In this document: in pieces, positions 1 through 27,052 of the stretch
Layout: each line of letters starts with the position of its first letter
How positions within the stretch are numbered: the stretch's first letter is position 1
Assembly (NCBI GenBank): GCA_913009835.1
Contig: CAJVXH010000016.1
Location: 1-33,794 of the forward strand
Reading direction: 5' to 3'
Length of the DNA: 33,794 nt
From: an uncultured bacterium
Lineage (GTDB): Bacteria > Electryoneota > Electryoneia > Electryoneales > Electryoneaceae
Position numbers and translations under genes: made by a program
The notes under the pieces: generated by a model
Told to the model about the DNA's origin: nothing
Database searches by the model: none
What the model saw: only the letters and a program-made list of their open reading frames with translations

Positions 1-337
1 TCGGAAAACAAATACAAATGCAGCCTCCGGTCAACATACTGACCCTGTCTTTTCTCTTGCTCATAGCTCACAGCTCACAGGCTTGAGTGATTCGTGTGGA
101 CAAGCCGGATTTATTATGAGGCATCCTCTTCAAGAACCAGTATAAAGTATAGCCTCTCCAGCGCTCACGCAAATGCATACGCCGAAATAATGAATGTAGA
201 TCAATTTGACGAGCAATTGTCCGAATAATAGAACAACACGCGATATTCCCCTGGTCCAGCTGGATACAGCCCTCCCCACGGTGAATGAGATCATGTCTCT
301 CACTAACAGTTGTACTAAATCCCTCCATAGAGAGAAA

Positions 338-8684: not shown

Positions 8685-9434
8685 TTAAGGTAGCTTGGTG
8701 AATGTAAACGAATCAGTAAGGGCCGAATTTGGATAAAATCCCACATGCCCATGCAAGGTGTATTCACCAGGTGCCCAGGAGGCCGGAATATTCTGTGGCA
8801 ATATATTTCGAGTTATATGCATGAAAGGAGTGAGAGTGAAATTGTACTGAAATTGAACTCCGGTCATGATACCACTCGGACGCTCTATGATCGACCAGAA
8901 ACTCACACCAGGGTACGATGCACCGAAAGTCGATTGCAGGTGCACGCCCCAACGCATCAAACCGCCACTGGCTGGCATCGTTTGAGTGTTCGACCACACT
9001 GCGAGCAAGACTGGAAAATCAGAACTGTTGATCCTCACATACGCTCCAAATCCACTGCCAAAGAGAGCATCACCAATATCGTACTGTGCCAGAGCAGGCT
9101 GTTCCTGATCCGCTGACTGATCCCATAGCTTGTAGTAAATCTCATTGCCGGCTGTGAAACCGTTGATGACTACATCGTCGTTCTTTTCCCATGCGGTCAT
9201 GCTCAGCGGCCAAGTTCCAACCACAGCAGCGCCAACACACAGATCACCGTCATAAATACCTATCTCATCTCCTGCCTGCAAAGATGGACCATAATCCCAG
9301 GTGGCATCTTCAACTACTATTGCATATGGCAAACCCGTAGAAGCAACAGGAGTAAAATGTACTTGTGCAGAAACGCTCATCACCGTCATCAGGCAGGCTA
9401 GCAGGACTAAGCTCGCCGTTCTAATCGCCTTCAT
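8685..9434 (-). CDS. Small secreted protein made of an N-terminal 'GDEIGIYDGDLCVGAA' domain and a C-terminal shared module; no sorting domain
   Basis: Signal peptide MKAIRTASLVLLACLMTVMSVSA; RBS GGAGG; ends ...YTLHGHVGFYPNSALTDSFTFTKLP. Confidence 0.88.
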   Translation of the reverse strand: MKAIRTASLVLLACLMTVMSVSAQVHFTPVASTGLPYAIVVEDATWDYGPSLQAGDEIGIYDGDLCVGAAVVGTWPLSMTAWEKNDDVVINGFTAGNEIYYKLWDQSADQEQPALAQYDIGDALFGSGFGAYVRINSSDFPVLLAVWSNTQTMPASGGLMRWGVHLQSTFGASYPGVSFWSIIERPSGIMTGVQFQYNFTLTPFMHITRNILPQNIPASWAPGEYTLHGHVGFYPNSALTDSFTFTKLP

Positions 9435-9620
9435 CACTACCTCCAGGTGGTCTGGTATTTATGGGTTAAACTGTCCAATACATCTCCGCCACAAAAATAC
9501 GAAATAGAAGTGGCCTGGGCCATAGATAATACTAAAAAACAAGAAAAAACTTTGGAGATTGTATGAAAAGGAGAGACTGGTCAATAAATCAAACGGGTCC
9601 AGATAAAGAAACCCTTAACT

Positions 9621-13013: not shown

Positions 13014-13041
13014 GGAGTCTGGAGTTGGGAGTCAGGAGCAA
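13014..13041. repeat. Heptad tandem array GGAGNNN x4
   Basis: ggagtct ggagttg ggagtca ggagcaa, followed by aaagacagg. Confidence 0.75.
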
Positions 13042-13072
13042 AAGACAGGTAAGAAAAACCAGTTGTGAAAAT

Positions 13073-13108
13073 ACAGGCCCGTGCTTGCTCGTCAAGCGCG
13101 GATTATCC
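13073..13108 (+). repeat. Dispersed hairpin element H, copy 1
   Basis: acaggCCCGTGCTTGctcgtCAAGCGCGGattatcc. Confidence 0.8.
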
Positions 13109-13266: not shown

Positions 13267-15639
13267 TCACTTCACCAATATGATGCGCCGGTTGAGTACT
13301 TGTTCAGGAGTGTTCAACCGCAGGAAATACGATCCGGATGGTAGTTCGCTTGCATCAAACTGTACGCTGTGTTCACCCTGAGTAAGTAAACCTTCTTGCA
13401 GGGTAGCAACCCGGCGACCGAGTAGATCGAACACCTCAAGCCGTACTTCGCCAGGCCGTGTCAAGGAATACTGTACTGTAGTAGTGCCATTGAACGGGTT
13501 CGGGTACGCGCCGAGTGTCGCATAGGAAGCTGGTTGGAATTGCCAGACATCTTCTCCAACATGCGTGGTGGGGTTGTCCAGGTAGGCGAGACCGATACCT
13601 GTATCAATCCAAAGCCTGTCCCGCCATTGATCATACGCCACAGCCAAACAGACTTCCTTGCTGTAATCGCCAGGCATCTCTATGTCTTGTTCATCCCAAG
13701 TCAAACCCATGTTGGAGGAAGTGAAGAGAACGGGCCAATCATACGCTCCCGCAACCATCAAAGTGTCGTCGATTCCGGTAACGATATCCCAGGCAAAAAA
13801 GAATGATCCTGTTCCTCCATTATAAATTTCACCTCTTCCCTGCCAGACTCCATCCGGCAGATAACAAAACAATCTTGAACCAGCTCGCACGTATACCGTG
13901 TCACTCAAAAACAGCATTGGTGTTATTACTGATCCCACCAGGTTATCCGGCTGTGGAAAATTCAATTCCTCCCATGTTTCCCCAATGTCATCACTTCGAT
14001 ATATATCAGGAGGGTATGGAAATACGCCTGTCGCATATATTGAATTGTTGTGTACTTGAGGATATGACAATGAGGCCGGTGTAGGTCTCGTCTCCCAGGT
14101 TTCTCCGTTGTCCGTCGATACGCTCATATCATATGCCAAACCAAAAGAACCAACATATACAGTGTCCGAATCACTCTCGATCTGCGATATCCATCGGGGC
14201 GAGTCATAAGCGGGAAACTCGTTTTCCACGGAGAACGACCAACTTGCACCATCATCCGTCGATTTCATGAGGGTATGATAGTCTATCTCACCGTTGAAAG
14301 CCTGTTTCGTTCTTGACACTACTATGGTATCCGGTTGATAAGACACTGGTGCGAGAAAATACCCTTTGTCATCATCAACCCCCAGGGTTGGGATCGGTTG
14401 GAATTGAGTTGAACTCTCAGAAGCAAAAAACATATCACCGCCGGTACCGCATTGCAGAACACCGCCTTCTTCAATTAACAGTCCATGCCACATCTGCCAT
14501 GTCTCTATCCCGGTTTGGGGCATTGGGACTGGATACCAGTTCTCACCGTAATCCGTTGATTTGTACAGTCCCTGCCCCTCAAGCCCTACGTACAAATGAC
14601 CACTGAACTCGTTTCGGTAAAAAACACGGACATACCGTGGTACTTCGGGCAATCCCCGGTACACTCTGCTCCAGGTCAAACCTGAATCGACACTCTCCCA
14701 AACGCCCGTGTTATACCCGCCGATGAATAGCTTTCCAGCTACTTCAGGCACTGCCAAAATCCGAGTCACATAAGTGCTTTCTGGAAGACCTGAGGGGTGA
14801 ATCAGCGACCATGTTGATCCGTTGTCGTCCGAATAGAGCAATATTGTTTGGGGCTCATCCACCCAGGCAGTGGAACCAAGTGCATACAACTCGTCATCCG
14901 TACCGCGAGCCATGGATCCAACAAAACCCCGGTCTTCAATAAGGTCTTCCATGGGCGTCAAACGTTGCCAGTTCACACCACCATCAAATGAAGCAACAAT
15001 CCCACCAACTTCCGGTCCACCATTTGGACTATCTGGTCCCCAGTAGCCATAAAAATAGATGGTATCTGGCCGACATTGTTCCAATAATACTCCCGACACG
15101 CCAGCTGATATCGATTCATATTCCACAATCACCCAAGATGCACCGTGGTCATAGGAGAGTCCGATTCCAGTAACGGACACGAAATAGATCCGATCAGAGA
15201 ATATGTAAGTGGGTTCACCTTGGATGGCAATTGCATCGAGTGTGTCCGGCCACCAGGGCCAGACATCATAGTAGTCCCAAGTCATTCCACCATCGAAACT
15301 ATAGTTATTATAATGATCCAGATCATAGCGATCAAACACCGAGACAACCAGCGTGTCTGCTGATGATCCCATAGCAACACTATAACCACCATCTCCTTCC
15401 ACCGTTTGCATTACTGGTGAATCTGTTATTCGATCATTTACCTGTTCCCAATTGTTACCACCATCATTGGTCAGCCATACTCCCCCCAGTTGTAAACTCA
15501 TGAGAAGCCTGTTTCCGCTGCTGTCAGCAACTAGGCTTATTGGAGTGCCACTACCATGAATTGAGGCCTCCCACTGAGCTACTAACACGGTCGGAATCAA
15601 CAGAATAATAAGCGCAAAGCACCAGCCCGATTTTGTCAT
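13267..15639 (-). CDS. Secreted BNR/Asp-box beta-propeller protein with T9SS type A sorting domain
   Basis: Repeated Asp-box motifs (SDDNGSTWSL, SVDSGLTWSR, STDYGENWYP, STDDGASWSF, STDNGETWET, SDDIGETWEE); C-terminal AYPNPFNGTTTVQYSLTRPGEVRLEVFDLLGRRVATL...IILVK. Confidence 0.92.
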   Translation of the reverse strand: MTKSGWCFALIILLIPTVLVAQWEASIHGSGTPISLVADSSGNRLLMSLQLGGVWLTNDGGNNWEQVNDRITDSPVMQTVEGDGGYSVAMGSSADTLVVSVFDRYDLDHYNNYSFDGGMTWDYYDVWPWWPDTLDAIAIQGEPTYIFSDRIYFVSVTGIGLSYDHGASWVIVEYESISAGVSGVLLEQCRPDTIYFYGYWGPDSPNGGPEVGGIVASFDGGVNWQRLTPMEDLIEDRGFVGSMARGTDDELYALGSTAWVDEPQTILLYSDDNGSTWSLIHPSGLPESTYVTRILAVPEVAGKLFIGGYNTGVWESVDSGLTWSRVYRGLPEVPRYVRVFYRNEFSGHLYVGLEGQGLYKSTDYGENWYPVPMPQTGIETWQMWHGLLIEEGGVLQCGTGGDMFFASESSTQFQPIPTLGVDDDKGYFLAPVSYQPDTIVVSRTKQAFNGEIDYHTLMKSTDDGASWSFSVENEFPAYDSPRWISQIESDSDTVYVGSFGLAYDMSVSTDNGETWETRPTPASLSYPQVHNNSIYATGVFPYPPDIYRSDDIGETWEELNFPQPDNLVGSVITPMLFLSDTVYVRAGSRLFCYLPDGVWQGRGEIYNGGTGSFFFAWDIVTGIDDTLMVAGAYDWPVLFTSSNMGLTWDEQDIEMPGDYSKEVCLAVAYDQWRDRLWIDTGIGLAYLDNPTTHVGEDVWQFQPASYATLGAYPNPFNGTTTVQYSLTRPGEVRLEVFDLLGRRVATLQEGLLTQGEHSVQFDASELPSGSYFLRLNTPEQVLNRRIILVK

Positions 15640-16484: not shown

Positions 16485-16513
16485 CTGCCACGGACTTTTC
16501 CAGTCCGTGGCAG
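16485..16513. repeat. Dispersed hairpin element P, copy 2
   Basis: CTGCCACGGACTtttccAGTCCGTGGCAG. Confidence 0.8.
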
Positions 16514-16535
16514 ATCGTTTCTTATGTCTCGGGTC

Positions 16536-16574
16536 GGATGATCCGCGCTTGACGAGCAAGCACGGGCCTATCTT
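16536..16574 (-). repeat. Dispersed hairpin element H, copy 2
   Basis: Reverse complement gaagataggCCCGTGCTTGctcgtCAAGCGCGGatcatcc. Confidence 0.8.
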
Positions 16575-16579
16575 CTCCC

Positions 16580-16614
16580 GACTCAAGTCTCAGGACTCAA
16601 GACTCAGGACTTCT
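16580..16614. repeat. Heptad tandem array (GACTCAA-like) x5, abutting the stop codon of the C25 gene
   Basis: gactcaa gtctcag gactcaa gactcag gacttct, then tta (TAA stop) at 16615. Confidence 0.8.
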
Positions 16615-19600
16615 TTATTTCAGCAGCATAATCTTCTGACGGTTCATCTGCTGCCCATATTGCACCTGCAGGAAGTAGACACCGCTGGAAATTCCCTTGT
16701 CCGGACTGAACAGGAATTGGTGACGTCCAGCATCCATATTCTTGGTAACCGACATAACCTGCTGACCGAGTACGTTGTAAACGGCGAAGGTGACTTTGCC
16801 CGTCTGCGGCAGAGCGTATGGAATCGTAATCGTCGGGTTGAACGGGTTCGGATAACCAGAACCGACCTCGAATTCAGTCGGCAGTGCGGCAGAACGAACT
16901 ACCAATTCCGCATGCGAACCTTGACCGAATACCAAGTCATCACCAACCAGCTCCGTTTCCAGAACTGAACCAGACCCATCCAGCACCCGAACGTCGAGAC
17001 TCGAACCTTCACCGAATCCAGCGATCTGCGACTCAGTATCACCCTTCCAGGCGACGATGATCGCGTCATCACGTTCCGGAAGCATATATCCAGAGCCGAC
17101 AACCGTCTGACCATCAAGGATCTCGATCACATCGACATCCATCTCCTGCATATCCTCATGCAGGGTCAGATGCACCAGGTAGGGCATACCTGACGGATCC
17201 GGTGCATTCGGTGCAACTGGCAATTCGGTGATCATCTGCTCGGTTGGTTGTCCAGCGAGCATCATACTGCTGCTGTATGCCCAGTTGACATTCGCATCAA
17301 CATAGACCTGGAGACCATCGCCTGGCGTCATGCTACCGATGGTATTTACACCCATATCCGGCCAGTAAATATCACCATCATCGTTCATGACAATGTTGAG
17401 ATTGGCAGCAATCGGGCTGAATGCCACGCTGACCGCAACCGGCGTTACAAAAGGTTGTCCGACCCAGTTCCACTGGTCCGCGGTGGCGCTGTACATCGTT
17501 GAAGGATTCAACTCGTCACCGTTGAAAACAAAGTTTTGCGCGGTATCAGTGTAGAAGCGATATCCTTCAGTCTGATCAATGTCGCCAATCGTATTGATAG
17601 CATGACTCGGCCAGTAAACGCCGCCGTCATCATCATAGACAATTTCCAGATCGGTGACAGACGCGAATACCTGATCTACAGCCAAGTCCAGAAGTGTTAC
17701 CGGGAAGGAAACCAGCTCGAATCGTCCACCCGCAACCGGAACAGAAATAATACCTGAACCCACCGTGAAGGTGGCGTCATCGCTGCCAGAGGCCATCATC
17801 GGGTTGGTAGCTGTAAAGGTGATTGTTTCAGAACCAATCCACGCCGGTGAAGGCGGAGTGATGGTCGCGACACGGTTCACGATACCAACGGTGAGATCAA
17901 CCTGACCCGTAGCTTCCCAGGTCAATTGATTGTCAGGATAATTCGGATCGGAAACGTAATCATCCAGATTGATCGTGGTGAAACTCTGACCCGGATCAAT
18001 TGACTGGTTAGGAATGTCGGTGACTATCGGCGGCTGGAAGGCATTACCAACGTACATGGCAACCGGAATGTCAGTGGATGGATGATCCTGATCGTTGGTG
18101 GCGACATTCACCGTTCCTTCGTAAATACCGTCTGGCAGGCCATCGCCGTCAAACGCTATCCGAGCGTCTGTGGATTCGCCCGGTTGCAGCAATCCGACTG
18201 TATCCAGAGCTTCAAACCATGTCGTCACCACCGAATAGCGGATAGCCAGATCATCCTCAACGTAAGTACCGTTATATACCGACGTCAGGCCGATAGTGCC
18301 GCCATCATTCTGCATACCAATTGTGGCAGAAGTAATGTCTACGGTGCCCATGTTAGCAAATTGGAAAACAATCGATCCATCGCCATGCAGCAACATCTGG
18401 AAACGATACTGTCCATTTCCACCATAACCGCCAATGTCGTAGTAGGTGATAACGGCAAGATCGCTGTTGTTGGTGTAGAAATAGATCGTGCCGCCCTGAC
18501 CCAGATCGAGGTCATCCCAGAACGGGGCAATCATCGATGCTGGCGGGTTGATCGGAGCCGAAGTGCTCGGCAATGCCTCATTACTGTAGGAGCCAGAGGC
18601 GGTCTGTCCCGAAGCAAATGTCAGGAAACCGTTGGTGTTAATGTAGACGTTGGTGTAGGTGACACCATAATACTCAAAGCTGAAACCAAGCGACCGAGCT
18701 GAGAAATAGCCGTCATCGCCACCACCATTGACAATGTCGCCTAATGGAAGAGCCGTGCCGTAGTTGCTGTGCCAGCTATATGTCGGACCACCAAGCTCGT
18801 TGCTATCAATCCATGAATAACCGTAGCTGTCAGGACCGCCGAGGTCATCGGTGCTGTTTCCACCACCGTTGTTATCCTTCAAATTATCGAGATCAATCGT
18901 GCGGGATTCTCCGGCAGCTTCCAGCTCCTTCTGACGCTGATACTCGTCCGGATCAACCGAGACTACTTCGGCTTGAGGTGTGTCAACCGATTCAGCGGGC
19001 AAGCCAACAGAAGCACGACGTTCTGCACTCTCAACCACGTTGTCAATTTCGGTGATGCTCCAATATACGTTGCCTTCAGCACCAACATTGGCAATGTGAA
19101 CGTTCTCAATGACAACTTGACCATCATATGGAACATTGATCTCAGCAGGAGTGATCTCAACTTCAGGATCTACTCCACCAAATCCACCAGACAAATCGTC
19201 GGCAAACACAATTGCGGTACCACCACTGATCGAGGAAGTATTATCACCATACATGCCCCAGTACAACCACTGGATACCATCATCCTGGTTCGGGCTTTCA
19301 ATACCGACCGTGCAAAGGTCGTTATCAGTGCCTGCACTACTCTCCTGTGAGAATGACTGGTATTGGAATTTGATCACACCATTCCCGGATGCAGTCGGCC
19401 ATAGCGCTGGATTGTAGAGGATGATCTGGAATACCTGAGAAGCACCGGTATAACGAGTCTGGCAATTCCACTGAACTGTATAGGTGCCATTGCCAACGTC
19501 ATAATAACCGTAGACACCACCACCTGTAGTAAGCAAGTCATCCCAGTTGGCGGCAAGCATCGCAGGAGGACCAGTCGGGCTCGGAATCGGCCAGTTCCTG

Positions 19601-22464
19601 AAGTTGTAAAGATCGTTTGAATCAAGCGAAATCGTGCCGTTGCTGTTAACTGTCATCACGCTGTAGAGTCCACCATAATACCCGAACACGAATGGAAGGT
19701 TGACCACCGTGCCATCATCGTCCTCGTTGGATGTATCAGAAATCCCCAGGTTATTACCTGGTGTCGAGATGTCCAGCCACACATAATCTGCATTCACACC
19801 ATAACCGCCGTCAATATTACTCAATGCCCAGTAACCATAGTTGTCTGGACCGGTAACGCCGTTGGCGGCTGGATCGCTGACAAAAACCCGGTAGGTTGTT
19901 GAGTCGCGGCCATTATCCTCATCCTCAATCACCAGCTTGAATTCTATCGGCATGCCTGGCCAGGCATCTGCTGTCGCTGTGATCGAGAATGGATCGCCAC
20001 TGTTAGATCCAACGCCGTTTGCCGGTACATCCGGATAGTTCGCTACGCCATCATTGATCGTTATGTTAGGAGTGGTCGTAGTGAGGGTTCCTGTAGCTCC
20101 GCTGACAGTGATGTCACCGAGGTTCGTCCAGGGAACCGCCATGTAGGCGGTCTCATCTGGATCAAGCTGACCGTCCCCTCCGAAAACCACGACCTGTGAA
20201 CCAGCCGCAACTGTGAAACCATAGACTGTCAACTGAGCATCCGAAACCTGATTCGCACCCACAGTAACTGTCAGTTCGGGGGTCATTCCATTCGGAGTGT
20301 TCGGGGAAACCGTAACCGAAACCGCGTCAGTAACGGTGGTCGAACCACCTGACGCCAGTGCCGGAACGGCAAAGGTATTCCCACCCACTATGGTGAGGTA
20401 AGGACTGCTCGTTGTCACTGTTGCTGTCTGGGAACCCACCGACGTCGAACCACCATTACGCATGGTCATATCAAGTGCAACAGTCTCACCAGGATTGGCA
20501 AGGTTGTCATCGCCAGCGCCATCATCGACCACTGTCGACTGAACATATACGTAATCCGCTGCCGTGCTCACTGTAATAGTAGCCTGGTAAGGGACCACGT
20601 TATCACCAACGACTGTCAGTGTCATCGAAGTTTCAACATCACTCGGATCGAACATCAAACGAATTGAACCCGAAGCGTCAATCCGATGCGTTGAAAGAAC
20701 CTCATCTCCATCGGCGAGAGTCGCCCAGATAAGTTCCGGCCAGTCACCTGGATGGTTTACATCAACATCGAGGTAGTTCTGACCCCAGTTGATAGCAGAA
20801 TCGTGAGTGACTACGATTTCATCCGGAACTCCAACCCAGGCACGTAGTGTCGGATCACCCATCAAATTGTTCCAATAGCTGAACCAATGAATGTTGGGAT
20901 CGCCCTGACTCGTACCCGTATAACCCTCATACAGGCGAAACTTACCGAGGTTCAAGGCCCAACCGAGGGAACGGATATTCCGCATGGTCATAGCCTCATA
21001 TATTCCAGAAACTACGACATTGTTGCATCGCGTGTTGGTGTGACTTGTACAAGTTCCAATCGCCGCGACACCACCCCGGAATGTGTTTCCACCTGAACCC
21101 GCGCGAAGGAAACCTTCCGTGAACTCTGTGGTCTCTGTGCCGAAATTCCCTGTGGAACAGGTAAGAATTGTGACGATAGGCAATCGTGAATCGTTGTTCA
21201 TTTGATCCAGGTAGGAGTTTGACCAACCGTTCATCCCGATATAGCCACGGTAATTGTGGAAGCTGATGCCTGCGTTAAAGGCATCCACTGTAGCCTCGGA
21301 AAAATTTCCTCCCATGGTATACCAGAGAGTATCAGAGTCAATGCTATACACATCGAGCATTTTCATAATCGCGCGATTTGTCATAATCGTGCTGATCCCA
21401 GAGGTAGAGGAACCAGCCTGCATATCAGCCTGGCTCAACCATGATGTATCGGTCATGTAGACATCGCGCTCATACGCAAGCGTCTTGTTTACCACACGGG
21501 CGAGTTCTGTGTTGCCATCCTGGACGGAGAAACGTCCTATTGCCAGATCAGCGATAAGGTCGCCGCCTTCCATCATCGTATAGGGATGATCAGTGTAGCA
21601 AGTCTGCCCGGAGTAGCTGTCGTAAGTGGCAGCCATATCACATGAGCCGTTGTGATCACCAACCAGCAACACGTATTCCAGCGGAATCGGATGGCCATTG
21701 TTGTAAGAGTTGCTAATGAGCGTGTTGATCGCCGAAGAGGAGCTCGTGCTGGTCGGATGACCAATCTCGACCACATATCCCTGCTGACGCTTCCACTGAA
21801 CGTAAGGCTCTATCCTGGTCATGAAAGTGGCGTTGTTCTCTATCACCACCAGGAGACGACCGACCGGCGCGACCTCGTTGACGTTGATCTCGTCAATGTT
21901 CATCACCATGCCACGAATTGTACGCGCCATCTCGGAAGAAACTGCAAACGGTTCCACACTGCCCTCGGCACGATCATCTTCACCTGCAAACTCCACCTCG
22001 AGATGCAAATCATTGGCGATCATGATCTCACCATCAGCGGCTACCCGAGCCGGAAGGACCGTTATTGGGAAAAGCCTGATACCCTTGAAAACGACAGGGT
22101 CACCGACTTCAACGCTCTCAAGAGTTCCCGCAAGTTCTTCAGCATATAGACCTGTGCCGACATACTCTGTTGCGTTTATCTGAGCCACAACACCCAGACC
22201 GTTCGGGACAACAATCATCGTCGTCGTACTAGGTAATGGCGACCCATTTGGAAGAAAGCCAGGGATGCTGATATAGCTACCTTGGTCATCCGTAACGAAT
22301 TCAACCATCGGTACTGATACCTGAGCTCGAACACCAGTCATGGTGCTCTCTACATTCTGCCATACCTGGGCAGATTGAGAGTCTAACGGTGCTGAAGCAA
22401 ATCCCAGCGAAACCATAATCAGAAGCAGGAAAGTCGTTCCCAAAGCAATCCCATGCCGATGCAT
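16615..22464 (-). CDS. Giant secreted C25 (gingipain-like) family protein with T9SS type A sorting domain
   Basis: C25-like region ([10 protein letters not shown]...[13 protein letters not shown]...[14 protein letters not shown]...GDPTLRAW); duplicated downstream domains; C-terminal [33 protein letters not shown]...KIMLLK; RBS GGAGG before ATG at 22464 ([18 protein letters not shown]), so the listed start 22494 is probably too early. Confidence 0.9.
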   Translation of the reverse strand: [1949 protein letters not shown]

Positions 22465-22844
22465 TCTGTATCCTCCTAAAGCCAAACTGATCAATGTCTC
22501 TCACAATCCGTTGCCAGCGCCTTAATTCTAACACTGCAACCGATCTGCGGAAACTATTCAAGTTTTTCGTGTTCTTGGGTTTCAAAGCCACTACACCCGG
22601 AGCAATTACGAAAGTAGGTAATTTTGAACGCTAAATGAAGTGCTAGCGCTAATATTCCCAAAATAAAGTGAGTAGATCGGAGCTATTAGTTTCGAGATCG
22701 TGATTTCCAGTCCACTTCCACGAGAATAATACCAATTCCTCGAAAAATGCCTGAATCATATAATGCGAAAAACATAGATATAGATTACTGATACAATATA
22801 CTTTCAGACCCACTTTCCCGCTTGAACATTAATAGCTGAGAAAG

Positions 22845-24090: not shown

Positions 24091-24224
24091 CTATAGGAAA
24101 AGATAGGCTATAGACTATAGGAAAAGATAGGCTATAGGCTATAGGAAAAGATAGGCTATAGGCTATAGGAAAGACAGGCTATAGGCTATAGGAAAGACAG
24201 GCTATAGGCTATAGGAAAGACAGG
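24091..24224. repeat. Higher-order tandem array: (CTATAGG)x2 + AAA(A)GA(T/C)AGG, 6 cycles
   Basis: Three cycles with a 10-nt aaaagatagg spacer, then three with a 9-nt aaagacagg spacer; the last spacer runs directly into hairpin H copy 3. Confidence 0.92.
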
Positions 24225-24254
24225 CCCGTGCTTGCTTGCAAGCGCGGATCACCC
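24219..24254 (+). repeat. Dispersed hairpin element H, copy 3
   Basis: gacaggCCCGTGCTTGcttgCAAGCGCGGatcaccc. Confidence 0.8.
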
Positions 24255-24296
24255 ATCGTATGTCAGCTGCGTTGGCGGAGCCAACATGGGCAAGAA

Positions 24297-24335
24297 TCAG
24301 AAATCAGCAGTCAGTAATCAGTATTCAGTGATCAG
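24297..24335. repeat. Heptad tandem array TCAGNNN x6 (last partial)
   Basis: TCAG at 24297, 24304, 24311, 24318, 24325 and 24332, exactly 7 bp apart. Confidence 0.85.
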
Positions 24336-24365
24336 CCGCGCTTGACGAGCAAGCACGGGCCTGTC
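24336..24365 (-). repeat. Dispersed hairpin element H, copy 4, inverted relative to copy 3
   Basis: Reverse complement GACAGGCCCGTGCTTGCTCGTCAAGCGCGG. Confidence 0.8.
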
Positions 24366-24482
24366 AGTCTCCGCAGCCAGCAGCCATGAATATAACCTCT
24401 CAGCTCGCTACTAACCATCTCCAGATCGTAATTGACATCAAATTTCAGATCGGCTATCTGATCCTAACCTATCGACTGACAG

Positions 24483-24504: not shown

Positions 24505-24743
24505 GGAACAGCTTAAGAAAATAGGCGGAACAGGTTGACGAACCTACAGCATAACTCAACGAGGCTTTATACTTGAATATTCGAGTTGCTCTATCTCAGG
24601 GAATATCCTGATATTGTGAGTCACGCTCAGAACTACTAGCTGTTGATTGACCAAGCATAAACATGATGTGAGCTACGTGTAGACCGTGCCTGCAAAGCAG
24701 CACGGCGTGAAAATGCTCATAAGCACACTCCTTGGGGGAGGAC

Positions 24744-26855
24744 ATGAGACAAAACCCACATCTTTCGCTTGCGATTGTCTTTGCTATCCTGTTATTGGCA
24801 TTGCCAGCAACAATGGTCGCGACACCGCTGCATCCAGAGACACTGGAGCTCGTTCAATCGGGACAAATCCCACCACCATATGCCTATGAACATTCCGTCG
24901 AATTGCATCAGATGGGCGTCGACGCGCCGATGCCTGTTTCCTTAGCTGGTGGAGCTCTGGACGTATACGCATTCAACTCCATCGTTCTGCTGGCACAATT
25001 CGCCGATAAACCGGCCATGACGCCACCCCCATTATATGACAACCTGATATTCTCTAACACGCCAGGGACACTTTACGATTATTTCCAGGAAGTGAGTTAC
25101 GGAGAATTCCAACTGGTCACTAGTGATTTCCCCAGCATGACCAATTGGCTGCCCATGCCGCAACTCTATTCATGGTACGTCAACGGCCAAAATGGCCTCG
25201 GTACGTATCCGCAAAACTGTCAGAAGATGGTTGAGGACGCCGTGGCAGCAGCAGATCCCATGGTCAACTTCGCCCAGTATGACCACGATGGAAACGGATC
25301 TGTCGATGGCCTGGTCCTGGTCCACTCTGGTACGGATGCCGCATGGTCGGGGTCAAATAACGATGTCTGGTCACACGCCTGGACGCTGCCTGCACCGTTC
25401 TGGACAGCCGACGGTGTCTACATCTCCACTTATTGCACAGTCCCGGAATTCTATAACGTCTCCGGCGACCTGACACCCGGTGTTATCGCGCATGAGATGG
25501 GACACGCTGTTCTCGGCCTGCCCGACCTATACGATACCGATTACAGTTCGATGGGGCTCGGATATTGGAGCTTGATGTCATACGGAATGTGGAATGGACC
25601 CATGCTGATGGGGGGATCACCAGCTCACTTGGATGCCTGGTCAAGGATTCAAGCCACCTTCGCCGCACCTGAGAACGTGATTCAGGATATGCCAGGTTTC
25701 CTCATCATGCCAGTAGAGCAAACCCCGCACATCATGAGGCTGTGGACCAACGGGATGTATGGAAACGAGTATTTCCTGGTTGAGAACCGTCAACCGTTCG
25801 GCTTCGACACATGGTTGCCAGGGGCGGAATTGCTCATCTACCACATCGATGACAATGTGACGACCTGGAACAACAACGAATGGTATCCGGGATACACCGC
25901 GAACGGCCATTATCGCATTGCAATTGAACAAGCTGACGCGATGTGGCACCTGGAGCAAAACGTGAACATGGGCGACCCGACAGATCCCTGGCCAGGCGCA
26001 CTGGGAGTGCCGTCCTTCGACCAGATCAGCTGGCCTAACAGCAATGATTACAACGGAAACGTTACAAACGTCGGCTGCGCGAACATGATGTCAATGCCAC
26101 CCACTGTTGGAGTTGATCTGCTGGTAGGCAATCCCATACCGCCATTTCAGCCAGCTTGGATCAACATTATCCCTCACACCTACCCAATCTTCATTCCAGT
26201 TGGAGGGGGATCATTCGGCTATGACATCCACATCTACAATAGTATTCCCGTGTCGAGATCCGGTCAGTTATGGTGGGAAGCCATTTTGCCCAACGGTAAC
26301 ACCTATTACATCGGGCGCCAGAACATCACAATCCAACCTGGACTCCCCTGGTCGAGCTTTAACCGGACCCAGAACATACCGGGGTGGGCACCGAATGGGG
26401 CATACCAGTTCGTCTGCAATGTCGGATACTATCCGGGTTTCATCGCTACAACTGCCATGATCCCATTTACCAAACAGGCATTGGTTGCCGATGGCGGTGA
26501 AATCGTTGAAGAATGGTCGATGGATATTCCCGACGACGAAAACGTCTACATTGAGTCCGCCGAACCGTTCGGACAGGATATGATGCTGCCAACTGAGTTC
26601 GCTGTCAGCGAGGCATGGCCTAATCCGTTCAACGCCGAAACCCAGATCTCGGTGTCATTGCCGGTCGCTACTGAAATCGTCGCGACGGTCTACAACACCC
26701 TGGGACAAAAGGTCGCAGTCATGGCTGATGGAGTTTTCCAAGCCGGTGATCACACGCTGACATTCTACGCTTCAGACCTTACCAGCGGAATGTATTTGCT
26801 AAACATTCGCACCGAAACAGAGAGCTTCACACGTAAACTGGTGCTGATGAAGTAG
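24744..26855 (+). CDS. Secreted M6 family metalloprotease with T9SS type A sorting domain
   Basis: HEMGHAVLGLPDLYD zinc motif, GYWSLMSYGMW; C-terminal AWPNPFNAETQISVSLP...YNTLGQKVAVM...KLVLMK; RBS GGGGGAGG before ATG at 24744 (the listed 24732 is a TTG). Confidence 0.95.
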   Translation: MRQNPHLSLAIVFAILLLALPATMVATPLHPETLELVQSGQIPPPYAYEHSVELHQMGVDAPMPVSLAGGALDVYAFNSIVLLAQFADKPAMTPPPLYDNLIFSNTPGTLYDYFQEVSYGEFQLVTSDFPSMTNWLPMPQLYSWYVNGQNGLGTYPQNCQKMVEDAVAAADPMVNFAQYDHDGNGSVDGLVLVHSGTDAAWSGSNNDVWSHAWTLPAPFWTADGVYISTYCTVPEFYNVSGDLTPGVIAHEMGHAVLGLPDLYDTDYSSMGLGYWSLMSYGMWNGPMLMGGSPAHLDAWSRIQATFAAPENVIQDMPGFLIMPVEQTPHIMRLWTNGMYGNEYFLVENRQPFGFDTWLPGAELLIYHIDDNVTTWNNNEWYPGYTANGHYRIAIEQADAMWHLEQNVNMGDPTDPWPGALGVPSFDQISWPNSNDYNGNVTNVGCANMMSMPPTVGVDLLVGNPIPPFQPAWINIIPHTYPIFIPVGGGSFGYDIHIYNSIPVSRSGQLWWEAILPNGNTYYIGRQNITIQPGLPWSSFNRTQNIPGWAPNGAYQFVCNVGYYPGFIATTAMIPFTKQALVADGGEIVEEWSMDIPDDENVYIESAEPFGQDMMLPTEFAVSEAWPNPFNAETQISVSLPVATEIVATVYNTLGQKVAVMADGVFQAGDHTLTFYASDLTSGMYLLNIRTETESFTRKLVLMK

Positions 26856-26982
26856 GCCATAGGCCATAGGCCATAGGCCATAGGCCATAGGCCATAGGCC
26901 ATAGGCCATAGGCCATAGGCCATAGGCCATAGGCCATAGGCCATAGGCCATAGGCCATAGGCCATAGGCCATAGGCCATAGG
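26853..26982. repeat. Perfect heptanucleotide tandem array (CCATAGG) ~18.6 copies
   Basis: taggccataggccatagg... 130 bp, uninterrupted; the first TAG is the stop codon of the M6 gene. Confidence 0.98.
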
Positions 26983-27000
26983 AAAAGACACAAACATCAA

Positions 27001-27026
27001 CTGCCACGGACTGAAGTCCGTGGCAG
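27001..27026. repeat. Dispersed hairpin element P, copy 3
   Basis: CTGCCACGGACTgaAGTCCGTGGCAG, 12-bp perfect arms. Confidence 0.85.
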
Positions 27027-27034
27027 GTATTTTT

Positions 27035-27052
27035 CTCCAGACTCCAGACTCA
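27035..27052. repeat. Short heptad array CTCCAGA x2.6 running into the ppx stop codon
   Basis: ctccaga ctccaga ctca; the stop TGA (minus) is 27050-27052. Confidence 0.65.

Follow-up and report, generated by a model that had tools for sequence, protein, structure and literature searches.

REP-like hairpins and heptanucleotide repeat arrays side by side in intergenic islands of an uncultured Electryoneaceae bacterium

In several intergenic spaces of the DNA analysed here, short arrays of 7-bp repeats stand beside a linker and a GC-rich hairpin, which raises the question whether the three parts belong to one element or are separate repeats sharing the same space. The window, that is, the whole stretch of 33,794 nucleotides, is contig 16 of a 3.59-Mb bin in 264 contigs (86% complete) from an uncultured bacterium of the family Electryoneaceae. 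It was compared with related genomes, including that of a sister species; of the relatives named below, G001 is of the same genus and G002 and G003 are of the same family. An earlier note, made from the window's sequence, had described the order heptads, linker, hairpin at four sites and proposed that hairpin and linker may form a mobile or recombinogenic unit which seeds heptads next to it.

Anatomy of the islands

As shown in Table 1, the islands were present at all four sites by direct reading of the sequence and TRF, with refinements. Downstream of the C25 gene, the minus-strand heptads at 16611-16580 read GTCCTGA GTCTTGA GTCCTGA GACTTGA GTCGGGAG. In the island beginning at 24091, TRF found the linker itself repeated inside a 23-24-bp higher-order unit. 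Beyond the four sites, a further island was found around the minus-strand hairpin H at 24336-24359, which has GGCTGCTGGCTGCGG-AGACTGACAGG before it and AATCAGT-type heptads on the other side. The recurrent order is thus real at the four sites, although heptads followed by AAGA(C/T)AGG and H proved to be a minority arrangement, the linker preceding just 8 of 83 H copies. Hairpin P, which takes the place of H in the island after the M6 peptidase gene, is a palindrome separate from H.

Table 1 Features of the islands in the window (H and P, hairpins; ".", no strand assigned).
Feature	Positions	Strand	Basis or remark
End of 5-copy dispersed repeat, GAGCTGT heptads + GAAAAGACAGGG, without H	1..144	-	
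GGAGNNN heptads + AAAAGACAGG	13014..13046	+	Direct reading
Hairpin H with its own ACAGG 5' flank	13078..13101	+	~30 bp after the array's linker
Hairpin P	16485..16513	.	Stem of 12 bp, perfect; T-rich tails on both sides, as in a terminator
Hairpin H = REP, CCCGTGCTTG-CTCGT-CAAGCGCGG	16543..16566	-	3' flank ATCATCC at 16542-16536
'Linker' AGAAGATAGG	16567..16576	-	AAAAGA-like array cap + TAGG, 5' flank of REP
Heptad array, GTCCTGA/GTCTTGA type	16580..16614	-	TRF period 7/14; directly 3' of C25 stop codon
Peptidase C25 gene + Por secretion tail	16615..22494	-	PF01364 E=1.3e-42, PF18962, ORF; stop codon abuts heptads
CTATAGG heptads interleaved with AAAAGATAGG/AAAGACAGG linkers	24091..24224	+	TRF
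Hairpin H	24225..24247	+	Exact-pattern match
AATCAGT-type heptads between two H copies	24294..24335	+	TRF
Hairpin H, second copy, inverted	24336..24359	-	Exact-pattern match
GGCTGCT-GGCTGCG heptads, then AGACTGACAGG	24360..24385	-	Upstream of inverted H
M6 peptidase gene	24732-26855		ORF
CCATAGG heptads, 18.6 perfect units	26853..26982	+	TRF 100%; begin at M6 peptidase stop codon
AAAAGACA heptad-array cap	26983..26990	+	AAAAGA(C/T)A contexts
Hairpin P	27001..27026	.	Pattern match
Two CTCCAGA heptads	27035..27048	+	Direct reading

Hairpin H as a REP element

Exact copies of H numbered 93 in the bin, and the reversed-pattern control gave 0. The sister species carried 2-4 copies and G003 carried 13, while H was found in 0 of the 36 other genomes of the phylum that were searched. 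The hairpin has a 9-bp stem with one G-T pair, and its predicted fold as single-stranded DNA was -9.0 kcal/mol on this strand versus -6.9 on the other. Because of this wobble pair, a generic search for perfect 9-bp stems was a poor stand-in for the family patterns. The architecture is [C/T]AGG, the stem, and AT[T/A]ATCC, with [C/T]AGG directly upstream of 78/83 copies. The information in the flanks was highest at -5 to -1 (ACAGG) and at +1 to +7 (ATTATCC). Upstream, A occupied -5 in 73% of copies, C/T -4 in 96%, A -3 in 100%, G -2 in 98%, and G -1 in 99%; downstream, the preferred bases from +1 to +7 were A (66%), T (93%), T (55%), A (80%), T (68%), C (79%), and C (54%). Beyond -5 the flank was near background, slightly A-rich at -6 to -10, and past +7 only weak preferences were seen.

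H is therefore a short imperfect palindrome with many intergenic copies and a conserved unpaired flank, and in this it resembles the REP elements and REPtrons of RAYT (TnpA_REP) transposases, which are likewise short imperfect palindromes present between genes in tens of copies (PMC3733652, PMC8266576, PMC2817692). The two described REP super-families are marked by the tags GTAG and CGTC (PMC3733652). Membership of H in either of them was considered and rejected, as its flank consensus ACAGG / ATTATCC contains no such tag, and H was therefore filed as a RAYT-associated REP outside those super-families. The H, H2, R, D, C, and S families of the bin differ in their stems and have the 3' flank AT[T/A]ATCC in common, so that this flank (GGATNAT on the other strand) is possibly a further class of REP tag.

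The same hairpin was found around a RAYT gene in the relative G003. Gene L240 on its contig C81 scored 91.7 bits against NCBIfam REP_Tyr_transpos (cut-off 80); exact CCCGTGCTTGCTTGCAAGCGCGG hairpins lie on its upstream side, and about six inverted H-type hairpins, four of them exact, lie downstream. Inverted hairpins on the two sides of a RAYT are also the arrangement of REPtrons. A paralog in the same genome (L227 on C160) is bracketed by ACAGG-CCCGCGGTTGCTTGCAACCGCGG. With exact copies flanking a RAYT in G003, H belongs to the REPs of a RAYT lineage present in this family of bacteria, and the idea that the hairpin is a dispersed element of mobile type was borne out.

Within the bin (86% complete), six Y1 transposase matches were obtained and a seventh RAYT was found by protein search; none of the RAYT-like genes was flanked by H, and they carried other hairpins or none of H type. 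The RAYT on C97 is bracketed by CCCAGACAT..ATGTCTGGG, that on C146 by CCCCTGCGGGCT..GCAGGG, that on C148 by CCCGGTTTC..GAAACCGGG, and that on C13 by CCCCTGTGACCCGC..GCAGGG. H thus differs from described REPs in its flank, ACAGG / AT[T/A]ATCC, and in having its RAYT copy in a relative.

Some further observations concern these genes. A RAYT-like gene on contig C71 of the bin (L071) is bracketed by AATTAGGGACAGACCCCTATT inverted repeats and resembles the TIR-associated 'TIRtrons' of PMC3733652. The 5.8-Mb genome G002 gave 24 Y1 transposase matches, far above its relatives. On contig C112 of the bin (L057 3907-4930), a 192-aa ORF of unassigned function lies between two head-to-tail tandem H arrays of 6 and 4 exact copies with a period of ~47 bp. 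The ORF had no Pfam match above cut-off and, not being a recognisable RAYT, was rejected as the RAYT of H.

Heptad arrays and their caps

Array statistics cover 1.67 of the 3.59 Mb of the bin, in stretches partly picked for H content, and genes there are simple ORF calls. On this basis, 84 period-7 arrays were counted, 69 of them intergenic, versus 0-8 for each of the other periods from 4 to 13; the sister species had 20 period-7 arrays in 237 kb. After alignment over rotation and strand, 35 distinct heptads shared a core near AGYC / GRCT (GRCTNNN-like), with 5.13 bits of information compared with 4.23 ± 0.15 (maximum 4.53) for shuffled heptads.

The number of units varied at fixed flanks. In a ~150-bp tandem triplicate on contig C9, 3, 4, and 5 GTCCTGA units stand between the same flanks. 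A ~165-bp dispersed repeat, found in five copies and free of H, likewise varies from copy to copy in its count of GAGCTGT units, and it holds two variable arrays, TGTGAGC (GAGCTGT) and GAGCCCC. Its copies lie at window positions 1-144 and at L033 ~9213-9485, L089 ~15145-15360, L189 ~14294-14529, and L206 ~16-248. The unit of the C9 triplicate (L095 14350-15050) consists of an R hairpin, heptads, and H, and its junctions fall inside the H hairpin.

Heptanucleotide SSR arrays are known from bacteria, such as GGGNATC in Xanthomonas and Nostoc (PMC4692102) and TAACTGA in Beggiatoaceae (PMC4679880). As recounted in the latter source, heptanucleotides were the most abundant category of long SSR in most genomes surveyed, and polymerase slippage has been proposed for them. 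The arrays of the bin are similar in being intergenic, of period 7, and variable in copy number. They differ in that a single genome has many heptads with a GRCTNNN-like core, and in that arrays often have AAAAGA(C/T)A as a cap at one end and REPs as neighbours.

This cap, AA..GA(C/T)A, was found at exactly one end of 19/69 arrays (about a quarter) and never at both, and the linker was accordingly rejected as a conserved part of every array. In 12 of the 19 capped arrays, no H, H2, or P hairpin lay within 80 bp on the cap side. The longer form AAAAGA(C/T)AGG occurred 28 times between genes, mostly without H, and AAAAGACA together with AAAAGATA occurred 67 times between genes, before H, before P, between heptads, and before unrelated sequence. 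Before P, the spacer was fairly constant and AACAAACNTCAA-like. The linker was also rejected as a part of H. Since the cap follows arrays and mostly does so without a hairpin, AAAGACAGG is thus read as the cap running into the ACAGG of the REP, or as the cap alone. The conserved flank of H comprises just (A)[C/T]AGG and AT[T/A]ATCC, and the proposal that hairpin and linker are one unit was not upheld.

Adjacency and the origin of the islands

A REP of some family was present within 60 bp of 33/69 arrays, whereas random intergenic placement gave 6.7 ± 2.4 (maximum 15 in 300); the controls for these statistics were drawn from the same 1.67 Mb, and the relaxed H pattern used for the array-REP count counts copies twice, so that the figure it gives for H should not be read as the number of copies. 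Half of the arrays had no REP of the families searched. Period-7 signal was found in the left flank of 22/81 H copies and in the right flank of 10/81, compared with 3.1% of control intergenic stretches and 0-4 for other lags. The hairpins stood at the cap or A-run end of arrays in 14 cases and at the other end in 2. When H was placed randomly within its own gap, the 6 arrays observed within 30 bp compared with 3.5 expected (35/500 simulations), while the same test was stronger for H2 (1/500) and P (7/500). The within-gap excess of H being weaker, part of the association comes from shared long, permissive gaps. The sister species showed a weak association (3/11 versus 0.6 expected). The tests of this analysis were numerous and are uncorrected. 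The adjacency of REPs and arrays genuinely exceeds chance. Its polarity is not predicted by simple co-tolerance.

We consider it probable, at roughly 0.7, that the islands are mosaics in which separately evolving repeats, namely RAYT-mobilised REPs and heptad arrays subject to slippage, have come to occupy the same permissive stretches between genes. H would be a non-autonomous REP that depends on a RAYT (TnpA_REP) to copy it in single-stranded form, a role suggested by the gene in G003, with [C/T]AGG upstream and AT[T/A]ATCC downstream of the stem as its putative ends. E. coli TnpA_REP cleaves at a CT dinucleotide (PMC8266576), and CCTGT on the tag strand of H would offer such a dinucleotide to a mobilising RAYT. 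The GRCTNNN-like arrays may gain and lose units through replication slippage or unequal recombination, which would account for the differences in unit number, and the apparent linker AAAGACAGG would arise where an array cap meets the REP's own ACAGG. Adjacency would then most likely reflect shared tolerance plus occasional insertion or retention of REPs at ACAGG-like array ends. Insertion of REP families into a recurrent DNA tract has been described for GTAG-15 of A. variabilis and GTAG-23 of T. roseum (PMC3733652 section 7). The REPs of the bin are similarly associated with another repeat, a possible target; the tract there is a palindrome with a regular link, whereas in the bin the REPs are linked statistically to the ends of heptad arrays. 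Counting for the mosaic reading are the copy number and flanks of the REPs, the RAYT linkage in G003, the excess of adjacency, the differences in heptad number, the caps that mostly occur without H, and the absence of the heptad array from the homologous M6-PPX gap of G003; counting against it are the missing H-type RAYT in the 86% complete bin, the lack of a clean pair of H-empty and H-filled sites, and the polarity.

Hairpin P bears on another reading, in which gene stop, heptads, cap, and P work together as a 3' UTR or terminator module, P being the terminator and the heptads either a spacer that can be tuned or a repeat to which a protein binds. The full P pattern occurred at 4 exact places in the bin, with 20 relaxed copies in the 1.67 Mb. 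P was never in a divergent gap (0/18), whereas 151/747 of all gaps are divergent, and this absence fits a 3' location; the window copy at 16485-16513 scored as a terminator on both strands. Within 100 bp 5' of A-run-oriented arrays, a stop codon outnumbered a start by 22 to 6, but in a larger sample the excess fell to 23:13 within 150 bp. Moreover, a T-rich tail followed only 5/20 P and 12/92 H copies, arrays also occurred in divergent gaps (10/63), and an Rfam search for a known RNA family returned no match. Heptads were also absent from two homologous sites in relatives, the M6-PPX gap of G003 and, in G001, the stretch that follows PPX, where the surrounding sequence was too diverged for junction analysis. 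Taken together, such a module seems unlikely.

In the seeding model, which builds on the proposal of the earlier note, the hairpin and its AAAGACAGG linker move or recombine as a single unit, and stalling of replication at the hairpin starts and lengthens heptad arrays beside it. The 7-bp periodicity on the left of H was indeed ~9-fold over control and polar, hairpins preferred the cap side of arrays, and the association extended to several hairpin families and weakly to the sister species. However, the linker is rare before H and abundant without it, most H copies have no heptads, and the sister species is heptad-rich with its few H copies. Arrays near REPs were neither longer (median 36 versus 34 bp, p=0.49) nor purer (p=0.79) than those away from them, and heptad number varied between the ~165-bp repeat copies without any H. 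Candidate pairs of H-empty and H-filled sites within the bin were ambiguous mosaics only. On these data, REPs that landed or stayed on next to arrays are no less likely than arrays that grew next to REPs, and we regard seeding by the hairpin as quite improbable.

The polarity heptads, AAAAGA(C/T)A, REP could also come about if a RAYT cut and rejoined single strands at the ends of arrays, at the CCTGT complementary to ACAGG, and thereby created or extended one-sidedly capped arrays, which we hold to be very unlikely. That REPs have no preference for array ends and merely co-occur with arrays by chance in repeat-rich intergenic space is scarcely credible, since the weak within-gap excess of H agrees with it but the stronger tests for H2 and P, the REPs beside 33 of 69 arrays, and the polar adjacency do not.

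REP hairpins and heptanucleotide arrays are both known kinds of repeat. The analysis brings to light a REP family from an uncultured lineage about which little is known, its RAYT having been identified in a relative, and it shows that in a single genome several hairpin families with different stems share AT[T/A]ATCC (GGATNAT), a flank distinct from the tags GTAG and CGTC. The association between two abundant repeat classes that are usually studied apart is quantified and proves to be polar, and the natural copy-number variants of the heptads make slippage testable. Among the neighbouring genes of the window are those for secreted peptidases that carry Por secretion tails, for UvrC and Ppx, and for polyphosphate kinase.
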